A DNA stretch of 64,000 nt from Bacteroides faecichinchillae JCM 17102 (GTDB lineage: Bacteria; Bacteroidota; Bacteroidia; Bacteroidales; Bacteroidaceae), in contig NZ_BAKK01000014.1 of NCBI RefSeq assembly GCF_000614145.1, positions 1 through 64,000 on the forward strand. The letters run 5' to 3'. Shown here one piece after another: positions 3,363 to 16,672 of this stretch (positions are counted from its first letter, which is position 1; every line of letters starts with the position of its first letter). The notes beneath the pieces were generated by a model, which searched no databases, had not been told where the DNA came from, and saw only the letters and a list, made by a program, of their open reading frames with translations. The translations under genes and the position numbers were made by a program.

Positions 3363-4664
3363 TCAGATAGAAAGCAAATACTGCTTAAAGCCCACAAACT
3401 CCTTCGTCATCGGCAAACTCTTCTTTTCTCCATTCATAAAAGCCTGTAGCTTAGCCGGAATTTCGACAGTCTCCCCAATGATACCCTCTACTGTCTCAAG
3501 GAATTTGGCAGGATGAGCCGTTTCAAGAAATACTCCTGTTTCTCCCGGTTTCAATACTTCTGTCAAAGCACGATATCCGCAAGCTCCATGAGGATCGAGC
3601 AGATAATGATGTTCTTTCCAAGTAGTTTTCACAGTTTCACGAATTTGCTCATCATTGTAAGTCGCGCCGGAGATTTCAGCAGTAATATCCGCATGAGAAT
3701 TTCCGTATAAATCAAGAATACGGGCAAAATTACTAGGATCACCTACATCCATTGCATTTGCAATCGTTGCAACAGACGGACGAGGTTTATATTCACCCGT
3801 TTGCAAATATTGATAGAAAATATCGTTGCGATTATTAGCAGCAATGAAGCGTTTTACAGGCAATCCCATTTTCTTTCCAAATAGGCCGGCAGTGATATTA
3901 CCAAAGTTTCCACTAGGCACACAAATGATGGCATTATCAGCTTTTCCGACACGCTTCAACTGAGCGTATGCATAGAAATAATAGAATGCCTGGGGCAGGA
4001 ATCGGGCAACGTTGATGGAGTTAGCCGAGGTCAGAGATAAATGCTCGTTCAGTTCTTTATCCATGAAAGCAGCTTTCACCAATGCTTGACAATCATCGAA
4101 AGTTCCATCTACTTCAAGAGCCGTAATATTCTGTCCTAATGTAGTAAATTGCTTTTCCTGAATCTCGCTAACTTTTCCTTTTGGATAAAGTACATATACA
4201 TGAATTCCCTCTACCCCCAGAAAACCATTAGCCACAGCACTTCCCGTATCACCGGAAGTAGCAACTAATACATTCACATTTTTCTGTCCTTCTTTCCTGA
4301 TAAAATAACCCAGTAAACGAGCCATGAAACGCCCACCTACATCTTTGAAAGCAAGTGTCGGTCCATGAAATAACTCTAACGAGTAGATATTCTCCGTAAC
4401 TCTCACTAAAGGGACATCAAAGTTCAATGTATCATATACAATCTGCTTCAAAACATCTGCCGGAATATCTTCACCAAAGAAAGCATCGGCTACCCGATAA
4501 GCTATTTCCTGAAAAGATAATGTATCAATTGTATCGTAAAACTCCTGCGGCAGAGGTTTTATAGTCATAGGCATAAAAAGTCCTCTGTCGTCAGCAAGTC
4601 CTTTCACCACAGCTTCTTGTAAAGAAGCCATCGGTGCTTGTTTATTTGTACTGTAATATTTCAT
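3363..4664 (-). CDS. thrC: Threonine synthase
   Basis: Converts O-phospho-L-homoserine and water to L-threonine plus phosphate, the last step of threonine synthesis, in the cytoplasm and with pyridoxal phosphate. The 433-residue length and opening MKYYSTNKQAP are typical of the bacterial enzyme. The PLP-binding lysine is Lys107 in GPTLAFKDVGG, and the phosphate-binding loop appears as ATSGDTGSAVANGF. A later SGNFGNITAGL motif also fits the fold. It is the distal gene of thrA-apgM-thrC on the minus strand, 87 bp after the preceding gene. Expression is probably controlled from the leader upstream of thrA. No defect is seen. Confidence 0.96.
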   Translation of the reverse strand: MKYYSTNKQAPMASLQEAVVKGLADDRGLFMPMTIKPLPQEFYDTIDTLSFQEIAYRVADAFFGEDIPADVLKQIVYDTLNFDVPLVRVTENIYSLELFHGPTLAFKDVGGRFMARLLGYFIRKEGQKNVNVLVATSGDTGSAVANGFLGVEGIHVYVLYPKGKVSEIQEKQFTTLGQNITALEVDGTFDDCQALVKAAFMDKELNEHLSLTSANSINVARFLPQAFYYFYAYAQLKRVGKADNAIICVPSGNFGNITAGLFGKKMGLPVKRFIAANNRNDIFYQYLQTGEYKPRPSVATIANAMDVGDPSNFARILDLYGNSHADITAEISGATYNDEQIRETVKTTWKEHHYLLDPHGACGYRALTEVLKPGETGVFLETAHPAKFLETVEGIIGETVEIPAKLQAFMNGEKKSLPMTKEFVGFKQYLLSI

Positions 4665-5989: not shown

Positions 5990-8425
5990 TTAGACGTTTG
6001 CGATACTCATGATATCAGCAAATACTCCGGCAGCCGTTACTCCGGCACCGGCACCGTATCCTTGAATCATCATCGGATATTCTTTATAACGTTCCGTAGT
6101 AAGCAAGATAATATTGTTACTGCCTTCCAATCCGTAGAACGGATGATTGGAGTCTACTTCCTGCAAACCGACAGAAGCTTTTCCATTCTCTAGTTTAGCT
6201 ACAAAACGCCAGTGTTTATGCTCTTTCTCCAAAACCTGTCGACGAGCCTCGAAATCAGCATCAAGACTTGGAACCTTCTTCCAAAAGTCTTCTAACGTAC
6301 CATCAAAAAAATCATTCGGAACAAAGAGATTCTTTTCAACATCTTCCTGCTCAATACGATATCCGGCTTCACGTGCAAGAATCACCAATTTACGAATAAC
6401 GTCCTTACCACTTAAATCAATACGTGGATCGGGTTCAGAATAGCGTTCTTCCTGCGCCATCTTTATTGTACGGCTAAAAGGAATATCAGCACTGATTTTA
6501 TTAAAAATATAGTTCAATGTACCCGATAGTACAGCTTCAATTTTCAGAATCTTATCCCCACTATGAATCAGGTCATTAATCGTATTAATAATCGGAAGTC
6601 CCGCGCCTACGTTTGTCTCAAACAAGTATTTTACTCCACGCTGACGAGCAATTGTTTTCAATTCACGATAATTATCATAAGCCGAAGAAGCAGCAATCTT
6701 ATTGGCAGCTACTACAGATATATTATGTTGCAGGAAGTCCTTATAGAGTGATGCAATCTCTGCACTTGCCGTACAATCTACAAATACCGAGTTAAAAATA
6801 TTCATGCCAATCACTTCCTCACGAATAGACTGAAGATTGCTGTCTTTTCCTTTCTCTTTCAACTCCTCACGGTAATTAGCTAAATCGAAGCCTTCACGAC
6901 TAAACATAGCCTTTGCAGCATCGATAACACCTACTACATGCAATTTCAATCCGTTCTCCATCATCAACTTTTGTTGCTGGCTACGAATTTGTTCTACCAA
7001 ACTTCCTCCTACAGTTCCGATACCGCAAATAAACAGATTGAGTACCTGATATTCGGACAGGAAGAATGAATCATGAATAACGTTCAACGATTTACGCAAA
7101 GATTTTCCATCAACAACAAAAGAAATATTTGTTTCTGAAGCACCTTGTGCACAAGCAATTACATTAATACCGTTACGTCCCAATGTTCCAAACAGTTTAC
7201 CTGCAATCCCCGGAGTGTGTTTCATATTCTCACCTACGATAGCCACTGTTGCCAAATCTCTCTCAGCAAGAATCGGTGAAATCTCACCCATTTCTATTTC
7301 CTTAGCAAACTCTTCATTCAATACCTCGCAAGCCAAATCTGCATCAGCATTACGAACACCAATAGAAGTACTATTCTCGGATGAAGCCTGTGAAACGAGG
7401 AATACACTAATACCATTCTTTGCCAAAGCCTTAAAGATACGGTAATTGACTCCGATCACACCTACCATACCAAGCCCCTGAACAGTAATCAAACTAGTAT
7501 CATTGATAGAAGAAATACCTTTAATAGCTTTGCTGTGAGGATTGGAAACTTCTTGTTTAATGATAGTTCCTACTCCTTCGGGATTGAAAGTATTCTTAAT
7601 TAAAATAGGAATATTCTTATGACATACCGGATAAATAGTAGGCGGATAAACGACTTTAGCACCAAAGTTACAAAGCTCGGTAGCCTCTACATAACTTAAT
7701 TCAGAAATTGTATAAGCAGTAGAAATGACACGCGGATCGGCAGTCATAAAGCCATCCACATCTGTCCATATCTCTAAAGCATCCGCATCAAGCGCAGCGG
7801 CTATAACAGCAGCCGTATAATCCGAACCGCCACGACCAAGGTTCGTCACGTCTCCCGTCATTTTATCGGATGAAATAAATCCCGGCACCAAAGCTACTTT
7901 CGGGATGGAGCGAAAAGTTTTCTTTACCAACTCATTAGTCAGTTCAGCATCGATAGTATGCTTATTATGTTTTTTTTCAGTCTTAATAAAAGTGCGCGAG
8001 TCAAACCATTCAGCTTCGTCAATCAATTCGGCAACGATGATAGAAGAGAGACGCTCACCATAACTTACAATAGTATCCGAAGTTTTCGGCGAAAGGTCTT
8101 TTATCAGATAAATCCCCTGGAAAATATCCTTCAATTCATTTAGCAACTCACCGATCTGACGTTGCAATGCCACTTGCCCTTTCCCGGCAGGAATAACCTC
8201 TTTTATCATTTCCACATGACGATAAACAATCTCACGGAACTCACCTTCATAAGCAGAATCCCCGGCTGCTGCCATCTTCGATGTATTTATCAATTTGTCA
8301 GTGATGCCTCCTAATGCGGAAACAACTACGATTACCGGCTCACTTGCCGACTCAACAATTCTCTTTACGCTTAAAATGCTGTTCACGGAACCTACGGACG
8401 TTCCGCCGAATTTCATTACTTTCAT
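5990..8425 (-). CDS. thrA: Bifunctional aspartokinase / homoserine dehydrogenase
   Basis: Catalyses the first (aspartate to aspartyl-phosphate, ATP) and third (aspartate semialdehyde to homoserine, NAD(P)H) steps of the threonine/methionine branch. At 811 residues it has the usual length for the fused enzyme. The N-terminal kinase opens with MKFGGTSVGS and has GRGGSDYTAAVIAAAL. Two ACT-like regulatory segments follow (around residues 310-460), as expected for threonine feedback control. The C-terminal dehydrogenase starts near residue 465 with LFICGIGTVGGSLVEQI as its Rossmann motif and contains FETNVGAGLPII and the KLVILAREAG segment. It is the first structural gene of the operon with apgM and thrC. 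A 21-codon leader peptide ends 133 bp upstream, so attenuation is likely on top of feedback inhibition. Confidence 0.97.
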   Translation of the reverse strand: MKVMKFGGTSVGSVNSILSVKRIVESASEPVIVVVSALGGITDKLINTSKMAAAGDSAYEGEFREIVYRHVEMIKEVIPAGKGQVALQRQIGELLNELKDIFQGIYLIKDLSPKTSDTIVSYGERLSSIIVAELIDEAEWFDSRTFIKTEKKHNKHTIDAELTNELVKKTFRSIPKVALVPGFISSDKMTGDVTNLGRGGSDYTAAVIAAALDADALEIWTDVDGFMTADPRVISTAYTISELSYVEATELCNFGAKVVYPPTIYPVCHKNIPILIKNTFNPEGVGTIIKQEVSNPHSKAIKGISSINDTSLITVQGLGMVGVIGVNYRIFKALAKNGISVFLVSQASSENSTSIGVRNADADLACEVLNEEFAKEIEMGEISPILAERDLATVAIVGENMKHTPGIAGKLFGTLGRNGINVIACAQGASETNISFVVDGKSLRKSLNVIHDSFFLSEYQVLNLFICGIGTVGGSLVEQIRSQQQKLMMENGLKLHVVGVIDAAKAMFSREGFDLANYREELKEKGKDSNLQSIREEVIGMNIFNSVFVDCTASAEIASLYKDFLQHNISVVAANKIAASSAYDNYRELKTIARQRGVKYLFETNVGAGLPIINTINDLIHSGDKILKIEAVLSGTLNYIFNKISADIPFSRTIKMAQEERYSEPDPRIDLSGKDVIRKLVILAREAGYRIEQEDVEKNLFVPNDFFDGTLEDFWKKVPSLDADFEARRQVLEKEHKHWRFVAKLENGKASVGLQEVDSNHPFYGLEGSNNIILLTTERYKEYPMMIQGYGAGAGVTAAGVFADIMSIANV

Positions 8426-8558
8426 GAAGATACTTATTTAAATGCAATGTCCTGTATATATCTTAAAATACAGTACGATTGGTTGTTTTACGAAAATATT
8501 ATAAATTGAATTTTGCCTTTTTCCAAGGCGTGAATCACGTAGATACACAAAACTATCC

Positions 8559-8624
8559 TCAACCCCTAAGGGTCATGGTGCACATGCACATGGATGTGAC
8601 TGTATGTGGATAGCAATTCATCAT
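8559..8624 (-). CDS. Threonine operon leader peptide (Thr/Met/Cys-rich)
   Basis: This 21-residue ORF begins with two ATG codons and ends in TGA. It contains four Thr, five Met and three Cys codons, clustered in the second half around MCMCTMT. AAAGGA precedes the start by a few bases. A promoter-like TACTTTTG lies 37 bp upstream and thrA begins 133 bp downstream. Such codon enrichment is the hallmark of ribosome-mediated attenuation, where scarcity of charged tRNA stalls the ribosome and changes RNA folding. The transcript can pair CTATCC at the start of the ORF with GGATAG just after it, and ACCC with GGGT across its stop, so alternative structures are available. I see no textbook terminator with a U-run before thrA, so the switch could be translational. 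Confidence 0.72.
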   Translation of the reverse strand: MMNCYPHTVTSMCMCTMTLRG

Positions 8625-8660
8625 TGTCCTTTGTTCTACTATTGTTTCTGATAAGTGTCG

Positions 8661-8668
8661 CAAAAGTA
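8661..8668 (-). promoter_or_regulatory. -7 box of the thr operon
   Basis: Read on the minus strand this is TACTTTTG, matching TAnnTTTG. It would start a transcript near 8654, about 30 nt before the leader peptide ATG. A -33 element is not obvious. Confidence 0.5.
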
Positions 8669-8797
8669 ATAATAAAAACATTCAATCTATCACATTTTTC
8701 TATATTTTTCTAATAAAAAGAATCTTTGCTCTTTCTCACTCTCTGAAAGGCCCACGCACTTTTATGACATATTGTTATTAAATATGGATTATATTGC

Positions 8798-8832: not shown

Positions 8833-9870
8833 ATGAATTCACCATATACTTCCGTATTGTTAATATACACCGGCGGCACGATTGGAATGATCGAAAACAC
8901 CGAAACAGGCGCACTCGAAAACTTCAATTTCGAACAACTGCAAAAACATATTCCAGAACTACACAAATTCAACTTCCCAATCGACACCTATCAGTTTGAT
9001 CCTCCTATGGATTCTTCGGATATGGAACCGGACATGTGGAGAAAACTGGTACGTATCATTCACGAGAATTACAGCCGTTATCATGGCTTTGTTATTTTGC
9101 ATGGTACAGATACGATGGCTTACACTGCTTCTGCATTAAGTTTTATGTTGGAAAACCTGGAAAAGCCCGTTATATTGACCGGTTCTCAACTCCCCATCGG
9201 AGTATTACGAACGGACGGAAAAGAAAACCTAATGACAAGCATTGAAATAGCAGCCGCACAAACCAAAGAAGGGAAACCTCTTGTACCGGAAGTCTGCATT
9301 TTCTTTGAAAACCATTTAATGAGAGGAAACCGTACTACAAAAATGAACGCGGAGAATTTCAATGCGTTCCGTTCGTTTAATTACCCGGTATTGGCGGAAG
9401 CAGGTATCCATATTAAATATAATAATGTGCAGATTCGTTCTTATAAAGAGAAACAGAAATTAAAACCTCATTATTTACTGGATACCAATGTGGTAGTACT
9501 TAAACTTTTTCCTGGTATTCAGGAAAATGTGGTTGCTACAATACTGGGAATTGAAGGATTAAAAGCTGTGGTACTCGAAACATACGGTTCAGGCAATGCT
9601 CCACGAAAAGAGTGGTTTATACGGCGGCTTTGCCAGGCTAGTGCACAAGGAATTGTGATAGTCAATGTAACACAATGCAATGCCGGAATGGTAGAAATGG
9701 AACGGTATGAAACAGGGTATCAATTGCTACAAGCAGGAGTTGTATGCGGTTATGACAGTACAACCGAATCAGCAGTCACCAAATTAATGTTCCTACTGGG
9801 ACATGGTTATACACCAGATGAGGTACGTGACCGCATGAATCGATCAATGGCTGGAGAAATAACGATTTAA
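8833..9870 (+). CDS. ansA: Type I L-asparaginase
   Basis: Hydrolyses L-asparagine to aspartate and ammonia. The 345-residue length, lack of a signal peptide and family motifs point to the cytoplasmic type I enzyme. The first catalytic threonine lies in IYTGGTIGM (residues 11-19), and the second Thr-Asp pair is Thr92-Asp93 in HGTDTMAYTAS, followed by the conserved EKPVILTGSQLPIG. It is divergent from the thr operon across a shared 200-bp control region. Its product, aspartate, feeds ThrA, so the arrangement makes metabolic sense, but shared regulation is only inferred. The start at 8833 is supported by the short distance to a promoter box. Confidence 0.93.
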   Translation: MNSPYTSVLLIYTGGTIGMIENTETGALENFNFEQLQKHIPELHKFNFPIDTYQFDPPMDSSDMEPDMWRKLVRIIHENYSRYHGFVILHGTDTMAYTASALSFMLENLEKPVILTGSQLPIGVLRTDGKENLMTSIEIAAAQTKEGKPLVPEVCIFFENHLMRGNRTTKMNAENFNAFRSFNYPVLAEAGIHIKYNNVQIRSYKEKQKLKPHYLLDTNVVVLKLFPGIQENVVATILGIEGLKAVVLETYGSGNAPRKEWFIRRLCQASAQGIVIVNVTQCNAGMVEMERYETGYQLLQAGVVCGYDSTTESAVTKLMFLLGHGYTPDEVRDRMNRSMAGEITI

Positions 9871-14301: not shown

Positions 14302-16672
14302 ATGAAGAAAAAAAATATTTTGATTGTCCTCACTCTTTTAACGACAGGGACTGCATGGGGAGAAGATTTCCCGAAAGACTCACTGAAAGTGGTAGATATT
14401 GAAGAAATAGTAGTGATTGCCGCTCCTAAAGAGAATCGTAAACTGCGCGAGTTGCCTATGGCTTCAACGCTCCTGTCTCAAAAGGACATGCAAGCCAATC
14501 AAATAAAATCAGTCAAAAACCTGTCAGCCATTGTTCCCAATCTATTCATTCCGGATTATGGTTCTAAATTGACTACCTCTATTTATATTCGCGGAATCGG
14601 TTCACGCATCAATACTCCTTCCGTAGGACTTTATGTAGATAATATCCCCTATATCGACAAGTCTGCTTTCGACTTCAATTATTGCGATATTGAACGTATT
14701 GATATTCTTCGCGGTCCTCAGGGAACACTCTACGGGCGTAACACAATGGGGGGCTTATCAAAGTACATACCAAATCACCGTTCACTTATCAAGGAACAGA
14801 TATCCGTATGGGAGCAGCGACTATAATGACTACAATGTTTCGTTGACTCACTATCATCGTATTTCCGACAAATTTGCTTTTTCCACTGGAGGATTTTATG
14901 AGCATACAGGAGGGTTCTTCAAAAACGTAGCGCGTAACAATGAAAGAGTGGACCGTAGTAATGCAGGCGGTGGACGCTTTCGTGGAATCTACCTTCCAAC
15001 GGAGAAATTGAAAGTAGACATGACTCTCAATTATGAATATGGTGACCAAGGTGGATATCCTTATGAATATACAGGAGCCATAACAGGAGAAGAAAAGCGT
15101 CCGGAATATATTGGTAAAATATCCTATGACAATCGTAGCAGTTACCGTCGTGGACTATTGAATGCAGGAGTAAATCTGGAATACCAGGCTAATCACTTCA
15201 TTCTTAGTGGAGCCACCGGCTACCAAAACCTGAATGACCGCATGTTCCTTGATCAGGATTTTACAGAAGAAGATATTTATATATTGGAACAAAAACAAAG
15301 AGCAAATACGGTCTCAGAAGAAATTACTTTCAAATCGAAACCGGGAAGTAATTGGCAATGGGCTACCGGTGTTTCCGGATTTTATCAATGGCTACATACA
15401 AGTGGTCCGGTACAATTTCGGAGGGATGGAGTGAAAACAATGATCGAAAAGAAAACAAATGATATCTTTAGCGGTTTAACAGGCGCTCCTCCAATGAAAA
15501 TGACTGCCAATAATCAGACTTTAACAGTAGGTGGCAAATTTGACACTCCCATATTGAACGGGGCAGTTTTCCATCAATCCACCTTTAATAATATTCTAAC
15601 CGAAGGATTATCAGCCACTATCGGATTGCGACTAGACTATGAAAAACTAAAAATGAACTATAACTCTGTCAGCGACCCTTTAAATTTCGATTTCTCAGTA
15701 GCAAGCCTTAGCAGTAGTGGTATGGAAGCTATGAGCTCTTTTATTGGCAAGGAATCTACCGACTATATGCAATTGCTTCCCAAGTTCGCTATCCAATACG
15801 AATGGAAAAAAGGAAATAACCTATACACCACAGTCTCTAAAGGTTATCGTTCAGGAGGCTATAACATTCAAATGTTTTCCGACCTGGCAACCGGTGCTCT
15901 AAAAAATTCAATGTTAGACGCATTAGCTGCCGATCCTAATTTCTCTAGAATGGCAGGTATGATTCAAAAACTAAAAGATAAACTTCCGGAAGTTAGCGAA
16001 GCTACCCAATACAAGCCTGAATATTCCTGGAACTATGAAGTAGGAAGTCACCTTACTTTGTGGGAAGGTAAACTTTGGGCAGATCTTGCCGCTTTCTACA
16101 TGGATACACGCGACCAGCAAGTTTCACAATTTGCCAAAAGTGGTCTTGGACGTATCACTACCAATGCCGGAAAGAGCCGTAGTTATGGTGTCGAAGCCGC
16201 CCTTCGCGCCAGTCTGACAAACGCTTTGAGCTTGAACGCCAGCTACGGATATACGTATGCTACCTTTACCAATTACGTGATTATGCAGGAAGATGCAGAA
16301 GGCAATCTCGAAGAGAAAGAAAACTACAATGGTAAATATGTACCATTTGTGCCTAAACACACCTTGAATATAGGTGGTGAATATGTTTTCACATGTAACC
16401 CACGTTGTATCTTCGACCGAATCGTTCTCCAAGCAAACTACAGTGCTGCCGGACGTATCTACTGGACAGAACAAAATAATGCAAGTCAGTCTTTCTATGG
16501 CACATTGAATGGTAGAGTAAATTTCGAAGTAGGTAATGCCATGATCAGTTTCTGGACGCGCAACGCGCTAAACAAAAATTACGCTGCATTCTATTTCGAA
16601 ACGATGGATAAAGGTTTCAAGCAACAAGGACGTCCGATACAATTAGGAATAGATCTCCGTTGCCGTTTCTAA
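14302..16672 (+). pseudogene. TonB-dependent outer-membrane receptor, two frameshifts
   Basis: Outer-membrane beta-barrel receptor that imports a ligand with TonB energy. The signal peptide is residues 1-21 (MKKKNILIVLTLLTTGTAWG). A plug domain follows, with SIYIRGIGSRINTPSVGLYV and ERIDILRGPQGTLYGRNTMGG. After MGG the frame breaks in a G run (14748-14753); restoring one G gives LIKVHTKSPFTYQG, and a second missing base near 14820 reconnects to YNDYNVSLTHYH. The rest is the barrel, ending in the C-terminal RPIQLGIDLRCRF, with final aromatic residue. Restored length is about 790 residues. No SusD-like partner is present, so a siderophore, haem or corrinoid ligand is as likely as a glycan. Two one-base losses within 70 bp are probably sequence errors. 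Confidence 0.85.

Follow-up and report, generated by a model that had tools for sequence, protein, structure and literature searches.

A Thr- and Met-rich leader ORF enclosed by a co-evolving stem as a probable attenuator of the Bacteroidaceae threonine operon

The threonine operon of Bacteroides faecichinchillae JCM 17102 is preceded by a short open reading frame (ORF) rich in Thr and Met codons, and we consider it probable that this leader is an attenuator in which a ribosome stalled on those codons blocks a stem, A:C, that spans the ORF. The leader was analysed in a window of 64,000 nt (contig NZ_BAKK01000014.1, positions 1 to 64,000), on the minus strand of which lie thrA, encoding bifunctional aspartate kinase/homoserine dehydrogenase I (5990–8425), a proposed homoserine kinase gene (TIGR02535; 4752–5960) and thrC, encoding threonine synthase (3363–4664). 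Sequence comparison shows that the ORF is conserved and enriched in Thr and Met codons, that the arms of A:C co-evolve, that hairpins B, D and E accompany them and that such leaders occur in other families. We counted in favour of an attenuator that the leader precedes a threonine operon and the only homoserine dehydrogenase found; we counted against it the modest fold stability, the lack of a terminator in the window and the many thrA loci of the order that fail an ORF-plus-hairpin test.

The Homoserine_dh domain has one match in this genome, within this thrA, so threonine and methionine synthesised in the cell would, as we take from pathway knowledge, share this single enzyme. A single match was also the rule elsewhere (19 of 21 genomes checked), including five of the six checked genomes with Thr-only leaders; enzyme number alone therefore does not explain the Met codons. 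The 407-nt intergenic region that holds the leader is common to thrA and a divergent type I asparaginase gene (8833–9870, plus strand). Farther along the plus strand, a gene that by eye resembles those of TonB-dependent receptors (14302–16672) is split into overlapping frames, 14302–14826 and 14690–16672; as read from the sequence, the split is a frameshift or an assembly error.

The leader ORF (MMNCYPHTVTSMCMCTMTLRG; 8559–8624, minus strand) has 21 codons, four of them Thr, five Met (two at the start) and three Cys, and lies between a promoter box and thrA, as an earlier note on this DNA had described. A short ORF between the promoter and a biosynthetic operon is a feature of ribosome-mediated amino-acid attenuators, and so is the enrichment of codons for end products of the pathway, here Thr and Met. 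The stop codon is 133 nt from the thrA start in the window, a distance that varies from 68 to 254 nt among relatives. When 95 distinct segments were picked through anchors in hairpins B and D, without demanding an ORF, 93 contained an ATG-initiated ORF, 36 nt or longer, that runs into hairpin B in the same frame, as against one and four in the other frames. The distance from the A motif to hairpin B keeps a single phase in 64 of the 66 sequences with a recognisable A motif, and 221 of 603 changes among close pairs are synonymous, a share of 0.37 compared with 0.21 expected. Across 73 related ORFs (1,218 core codons), Thr accounts for 24.5% and Met for 15.3% of core codons; shuffling gives 8.6% and 1.3%, with either observed value reached in 0 of 500 shuffles, and the other two frames give Thr/Met shares of 7.5/0.1% and 3.8/0.4%. 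By these measures, the leader ORF is conserved, coding-like and rich in Thr and Met. Thr is present in every leader peptide and Met is missing from only two of 73 cores. By contrast, 23 of the 73 lack Cys, and the usual Cys site is occupied across relatives by C, W, R or G. The earlier proposal of attenuation that senses several amino acids at once is thus supported in part: the conserved Thr- and Met-rich ORF and the co-evolving stem described below agree with it, sensing of Met would be a further step, and Cys as a sensed amino acid is not supported.

That proposal had been staked on conservation of the ORF in related species, which is borne out by the single reading frame, the codon enrichment and DNA matches throughout the genus. 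Of 99 genomes of the same genus, 81 contain a match to the 275 nt of leader DNA, as do 60 of the 64 good ones; one of the 81 (G055) matches only through a 50-nt promoter piece, without the leader and without a match to R1, a model for which the stretch between hairpins B and D, both included, was taken from 64 sequences. Most DNA matches stop at query position 171–173, from which it follows that the stretch from the promoter to D is conserved and the remainder up to thrA is variable. R1 recovers the leader in three of the 18 genomes that had no DNA match (G048, G085 and G088), each time before a thrA-like start; weak matches in G061 (not at thrA) and L173 (not before a thrA-like start) were also obtained in the genus. 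Within the family, 145 of 398 genomes, spread over 10 of its 22 genera, match R1 at E ≤ 0.01, and the order search yielded matches in 10 of 392 genomes, several of them not at thrA: among the weak ones, L178, L180, L181 and L182 are not followed by a thrA-like start, whereas L177 and L179 are. Ahead of B in L179 there is a frame rich in Thr, in which no ATG start was found.

A looser test, for a Thr-containing ORF that ends on hairpin B before thrA, is passed by 42 of 80 named loci and failed by 38. Order-wide, 13 of 42 thrA upstream regions pass, in 12 other families, and 29 fail; these regions derive from the 44 genomes, of 109 searched, that match ThrA at E ≤ 1e-40, less our own genome and G034. 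Of one set of 20 fetched stretches, the three outside L256–L272 were read. In controls, 0 of 6,100 shuffles and 7 of 122 reverse strands pass, the latter probably because the hairpin is nearly palindromic. Some distant leaders close on runs of Thr, as in MQINPKYLFSYTTTTTPWGV, MFRISFHITTTTTPWGVK and MMFWQLHITTTTTTTPAGV (L232), written in mixed Thr codons, and 7 of the 13 other-family leaders have no Met codon close to the hairpin.

Arm A of the ORF-spanning stem (GCTATCC; 8608–8614, minus strand) covers codons 4–6, and its partner, arm C (GGATAGT; 8552–8558), follows directly on the stop codon; the Thr and Met codons and hairpin B (ACCC-TTAG-GGGT; 8562–8573, on the final ORF codons) are enclosed between them. 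Minimum free energy (MFE) and centroid folds of the window leader both pair CTATCC with GGATAG, and covariation of these two motifs, which the earlier note had put forward as a check, is found across relatives. The mean best-stem score of A:C is 17.3 over 74 sequences, compared with 15.6 ± 0.31 when arm C is swapped between sequences (observed value reached in 0 of 200 swaps) and 12.8 ± 0.28 when arm C is shuffled. In some relatives the stem has a wholly different sequence, for example CGTTGTACG/CGTACAATG in L074. Among 36 region pairs (69 sequences), only A:C clearly co-evolves (z 6.5; next highest 2.7). The leader thus possesses what an attenuator needs, a fold in the RNA that cannot persist while a ribosome occupies the ORF. 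Pair counts on alignment A3 gave mixed support, with 15 double-change cells versus 9.7 (0 of 500), 3 double-change pairs versus 1.7 (70 of 500) and 6 pair types versus 6.5 (452 of 500); RNAalifold on alignment A1 returned ten pairs, one of them with double changes.

The 74–76 segments used for the structure and composition tests were chosen with the anchors CC[CT]-N-GGG and [TA]CTACG[CT]G, which by construction leaves no variation in the core of either B or D. Two rows were dropped before the counts (L023, cut by a contig end, and L106, a match unrelated to the leader), and L064 (Phocaeicola oris), which has D and E and no such ORF, was excluded from most structure tests; the 36-pair test kept 69 of 76 sequences, those without a recognised thrA start or ORF also being dropped. 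Hairpin B, seen by comparison and itself an anchor, has the loops TTAG (33), TTTG (10), CTCG (10), TTCG (7) and four singletons in 64 sequences. For the 60 of 73 sequences with a good A:C score (at least 14), on which the MFE and tail U-richness tests were made, the MFE fold contains A:C in 53 cases, hairpin B in 57 and hairpin D in 44; mean stability is modest (z −1.27). The whole 241-nt window leader folds no better than shuffles (z −0.52). Single folds of close relatives hinted that arm C might pair with the region around the thrA start; this pairing was rejected, as it shows no co-variation (z −0.6). Together with the variable distance between the leader stop and thrA (68–254 nt), the result argues that the thrA start is not directly sequestered.

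The Thr and Met codons lie between A and C, where any ribosome has to open the A:C stem, which is why direct occlusion is proposed. The leader ORF would be translated while being transcribed. When Thr-tRNA (and, in this family, probably also Met-tRNA) is scarce, the ribosome would stall on the Thr or Met codons between arm A and hairpin B and keep arm A off arm C; A:C would not form and transcription would continue into thrA. When the amino acids are plentiful, the ribosome would reach the stop codon beside arm C and leave, A:C would then close over hairpin B behind RNA polymerase, and the polymerase, with or without the help of Rho, would terminate or be held up in the U-rich/D region. No separate antiterminator would be needed, as the stalled ribosome would serve in its place. 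The stalling, the sensing of Met, this off-state and the manner in which transcription ends are what we infer from the arrangement of the leader.

The last of these steps was considered against the classical design, known from the thr operon of enterobacteria, in which separate and mutually exclusive antiterminator and terminator hairpins would follow the ORF. Two Thr-rich thrA leaders of the order, L244 (MKHQLHTIITITTTRPQTS) and L247 (MIFTGTGNTTVTTGTGTLLYRGCCAL), do appear on reading to carry a separate hairpin followed by a T-run between the ORF and thrA. In the window, however, no terminator-like site was found between 8400 and 8832, in keeping with the absence of a clear U-run terminator remarked on before, and the intrinsic terminator that precedes the first gene in classical thr, trp and his attenuators is missing from this stretch. 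Nor does the comparison reveal mutually exclusive hairpins: A:C is the only clearly co-evolving stem among the 36 region pairs, and neither C nor D nor the region that follows has another partner with which it co-evolves (a pairing kept without sequence change would escape the test), and the stretch past D/E is poorly conserved. We therefore regard classical attenuation as unlikely for this leader. The tail after A:C in Bacteroidaceae is moderately U-rich (0.50 versus 0.32), with a tail score of 1.98 compared with 1.01 in random leader windows, 14% of which reach 1.98; given this tail and the lack of a terminator in the window, a polymerase stop in the U-rich/D region is proposed, alone or with Rho. 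A clear U-run follows A:C in 3 of 21 distant leaders: L221 has a stem GCAACA/TGTTGC around B and then directly TTTTTT, L235 has CATGATT/AATCATG and then ATTTTTTT, and L226 has TTTT after the stem. In these three, the 5′ arm of the terminator would be the leader ORF itself. Over the distant leaders, the A:C signal is weak, the observed mean being reached in 11 of 500 swaps.

Hairpin D (GTGTATCTACGTGATTCAC; 8530–8548, minus strand; loop CTACGTG) belongs to the region in which the polymerase would be held. In 93 distinct leaders chosen by peptide alone, without D as a criterion, the loop is CTACG followed by TG (86) or CG (3) in 89; exceptions include L142 (CTGCGCG) and L082 (CTATATG), and no D is present in Parabacteroides L075 and L077. 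Both sides of the D stem have changed at three pairs. Hairpin E (GCCTTGGAAAAAGGC; 8515–8529, minus strand) is absent in part of the genus and has compensatory pairs in relatives; in the consensus fold of alignment A2, which is of the Phocaeicola type, 5 of the 15 predicted pairs show compensatory changes, which fall in D and E. A role for D as a general element of amino-acid leaders was rejected, since it occurs at only one place in our own genome, both by pattern (up to three mismatches; a reversed control pattern gave two) and by R1.

Rho-dependent attenuation would give D another part: release of the ribosome would leave the leader free for Rho, with D as the pause site, and stalled ribosomes would shield the RNA. 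The elemental-pause consensus is G at −10, Y at −1 and G at +1. The D sequence, GTGTWTCTACG[TC]G, fits it, with G at −10 in all of the leaders that have CTACG plus TG or CG (89 of 93), and an intrinsic terminator is absent in the window. However, L177, from another family, keeps CTACGT within the loop CTACGTA, which there tops another stem (GCATCC/GGATGC) at a distance of 130 nt from a thrA-like start, and has A at both −10 and +1. This points to an RNA hairpin rather than a pause sequence; as a DNA pause motif, D would suit the leaders of Bacteroidaceae and not L177. Rho has been proposed for mycobacterial Cys leaders without terminators (PMC1262725). We hold Rho-dependent attenuation to be a reasonable minority reading, clearly less probable than occlusion of A:C by the ribosome in its general form.

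A nascent-peptide arrest or a riboswitch-like RNA could in principle replace codon sensing. The D loop is nearly invariant, and the peptides of Parabacteroides and other Tannerellaceae resemble one another (for example AYYTWALMTPWGV). By contrast, leaders of Bacteroidaceae and of other families vary in length and residue order and yet stay rich in Thr, and often in Met, with runs such as TTTTTMMT and TTTTTTT; we consider both alternatives improbable. In the Tannerellaceae/Parabacteroides leaders (L073, L075, L076, L077, L096 and L107), the peptides have a core in common, centred on YxTWAL and TP(WG) and including one or two Trp codons, whose sequence suggests conservation of the peptide itself more than a run of codons.

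The proposed promoter (8661–8685, minus strand) combines a TTG (8685–8683) with the −7 box TACTTTTG (8668–8661), which is kept in relatives, and transcription would be expected to start at about 8654. The box corresponds to the Bacteroides promoter consensus TAnnTTTG/TTTG given in PMC7366714. Of 91 distinct leaders, 89 have a TAnnTTTG box no more than 75 nt upstream of the ORF, and 74 of these 89 also have a TTG 14–26 nt above it. The earlier note had named a transcription start downstream of the ORF as a second refutation; the conservation of this upstream box makes such a start less likely. A second −7-like box, TAGTTTTG, is found at 8555–8548, directly past the leader ORF, and raises the question of whether a promoter there drives thrA and leaves the leader ORF of little importance. 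It matches TAnnTTTG, and a box 3–7 nt past the stop recurs in 18 loci (not de-duplicated) from more than one clade, including B. mediterraneensis. However, it is present in only 10 of the 64 rows of A3, whereas TAGTATTTG, one base longer, is present in 19 of 64; its bases co-evolve with arm A, and the box upstream of the ORF is the one that nearly all leaders have. A −7-like box anywhere between the leader stop and thrA occurs in 20 of 91 leaders, compared with 10% after shuffling. A second promoter that bypasses the leader is, in our judgement, the least probable of the readings. In the leader 5′ untranslated region (UTR), positions 8632–8639 (minus strand) read GTAGAACA in the window and TAGAAACA in most relatives. 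Pairing of the 5′ UTR with the 5′ half of hairpin D is not proposed: the two are complementary (z 14.5 versus shuffles) but do not co-vary (z 0.8).

More tentatively, occlusion of A:C can be extended to a two-amino-acid attenuator for Thr and Met, in which the leader as a Thr sensor would be older than the Bacteroidaceae. The stalled ribosome may here replace the antiterminator because the sensing codons sit inside the regulatory stem, and the CUACGUG-loop hairpin of the Bacteroidaceae may be a sequence-specific pause, termination or protein-binding element that couples the ribosome to RNA polymerase. We put this joint reading forward as a possibility that we think somewhat unlikely as a whole. 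If true, a leader absent from Rfam could be traced from Thr-run leaders in several families to a Thr-plus-Met form in Bacteroidaceae, and would offer, in a major group of gut bacteria, a small and experimentally tractable example of attenuation that lacks a recognisable terminator, as well as a nearly invariant RNA loop (CUACGUG) that may have a partner.

Scans of the window with Rfam covariance models returned only a tRNA at gathering scores; within 8400–8720 there were four chance-level matches (E 2.4–9.1). The leader was thus not matched by any Rfam family, Thr_leader and Bacteroid-trp included. A literature search that covered few subscription journals found no paper on a Bacteroides thrA leader, although Lopatovskaya et al. 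(2010) may treat Bacteroidetes attenuators. In B. thetaiotaomicron, long 5′ UTRs contain short ORFs reminiscent of leader peptides, as reported in PMC7366714, the main text of which includes neither ‘thrA’ nor ‘threonine’.

A close parallel is the enterobacterial thr operon attenuator (Thr_leader), which has Thr and Ile codons. In both systems the thrA gene of a threonine operon follows a leader ORF rich in Thr codons, and ribosome stalling would presumably be the signal, whereas here Met rather than Ile stands beside Thr, the regulatory codons lie inside the A:C stem, and neither a terminator/antiterminator pair nor an Rfam match was found in the leader. Bacteroid-trp RNA is a trp-operon leader. 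Like the thrA leader, it (RF01692) is an RNA motif of Bacteroidetes (PMC2864571), but Rfam scans gave no match between the two. In actinobacterial ilvB leaders (PMC1262725), leader codons likewise overlap a regulatory hairpin, there a candidate terminator followed by poly-U; these leaders differ in having branched-chain codons and in belonging to another phylum. Mycobacterial cys leaders, from the same source, resemble the thrA leader in having a conserved ORF without a conserved terminator hairpin, with Rho proposed, and differ in their runs of Cys codons and in that no ORF-spanning co-evolving stem is described in the passages on them. The Corynebacterium ilvB-II motif (PMC10272879) shares one copy per genome, an upstream ORF with a length always divisible by three and an ORF that spans a structured stem, but differs in that its P2 is a strong terminator and an antiterminator is predicted. 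As neither an antiterminator/terminator pair nor an intrinsic terminator was found, we do not file the thrA leader as a classical thr attenuator. The general idea nevertheless has precedents in the overlap of codons and terminator in actinobacteria and in the Cys leaders with proposed Rho terminators (PMC1262725), and the Bacteroidaceae leader, although not a classical thr attenuator, probably works like an attenuator.
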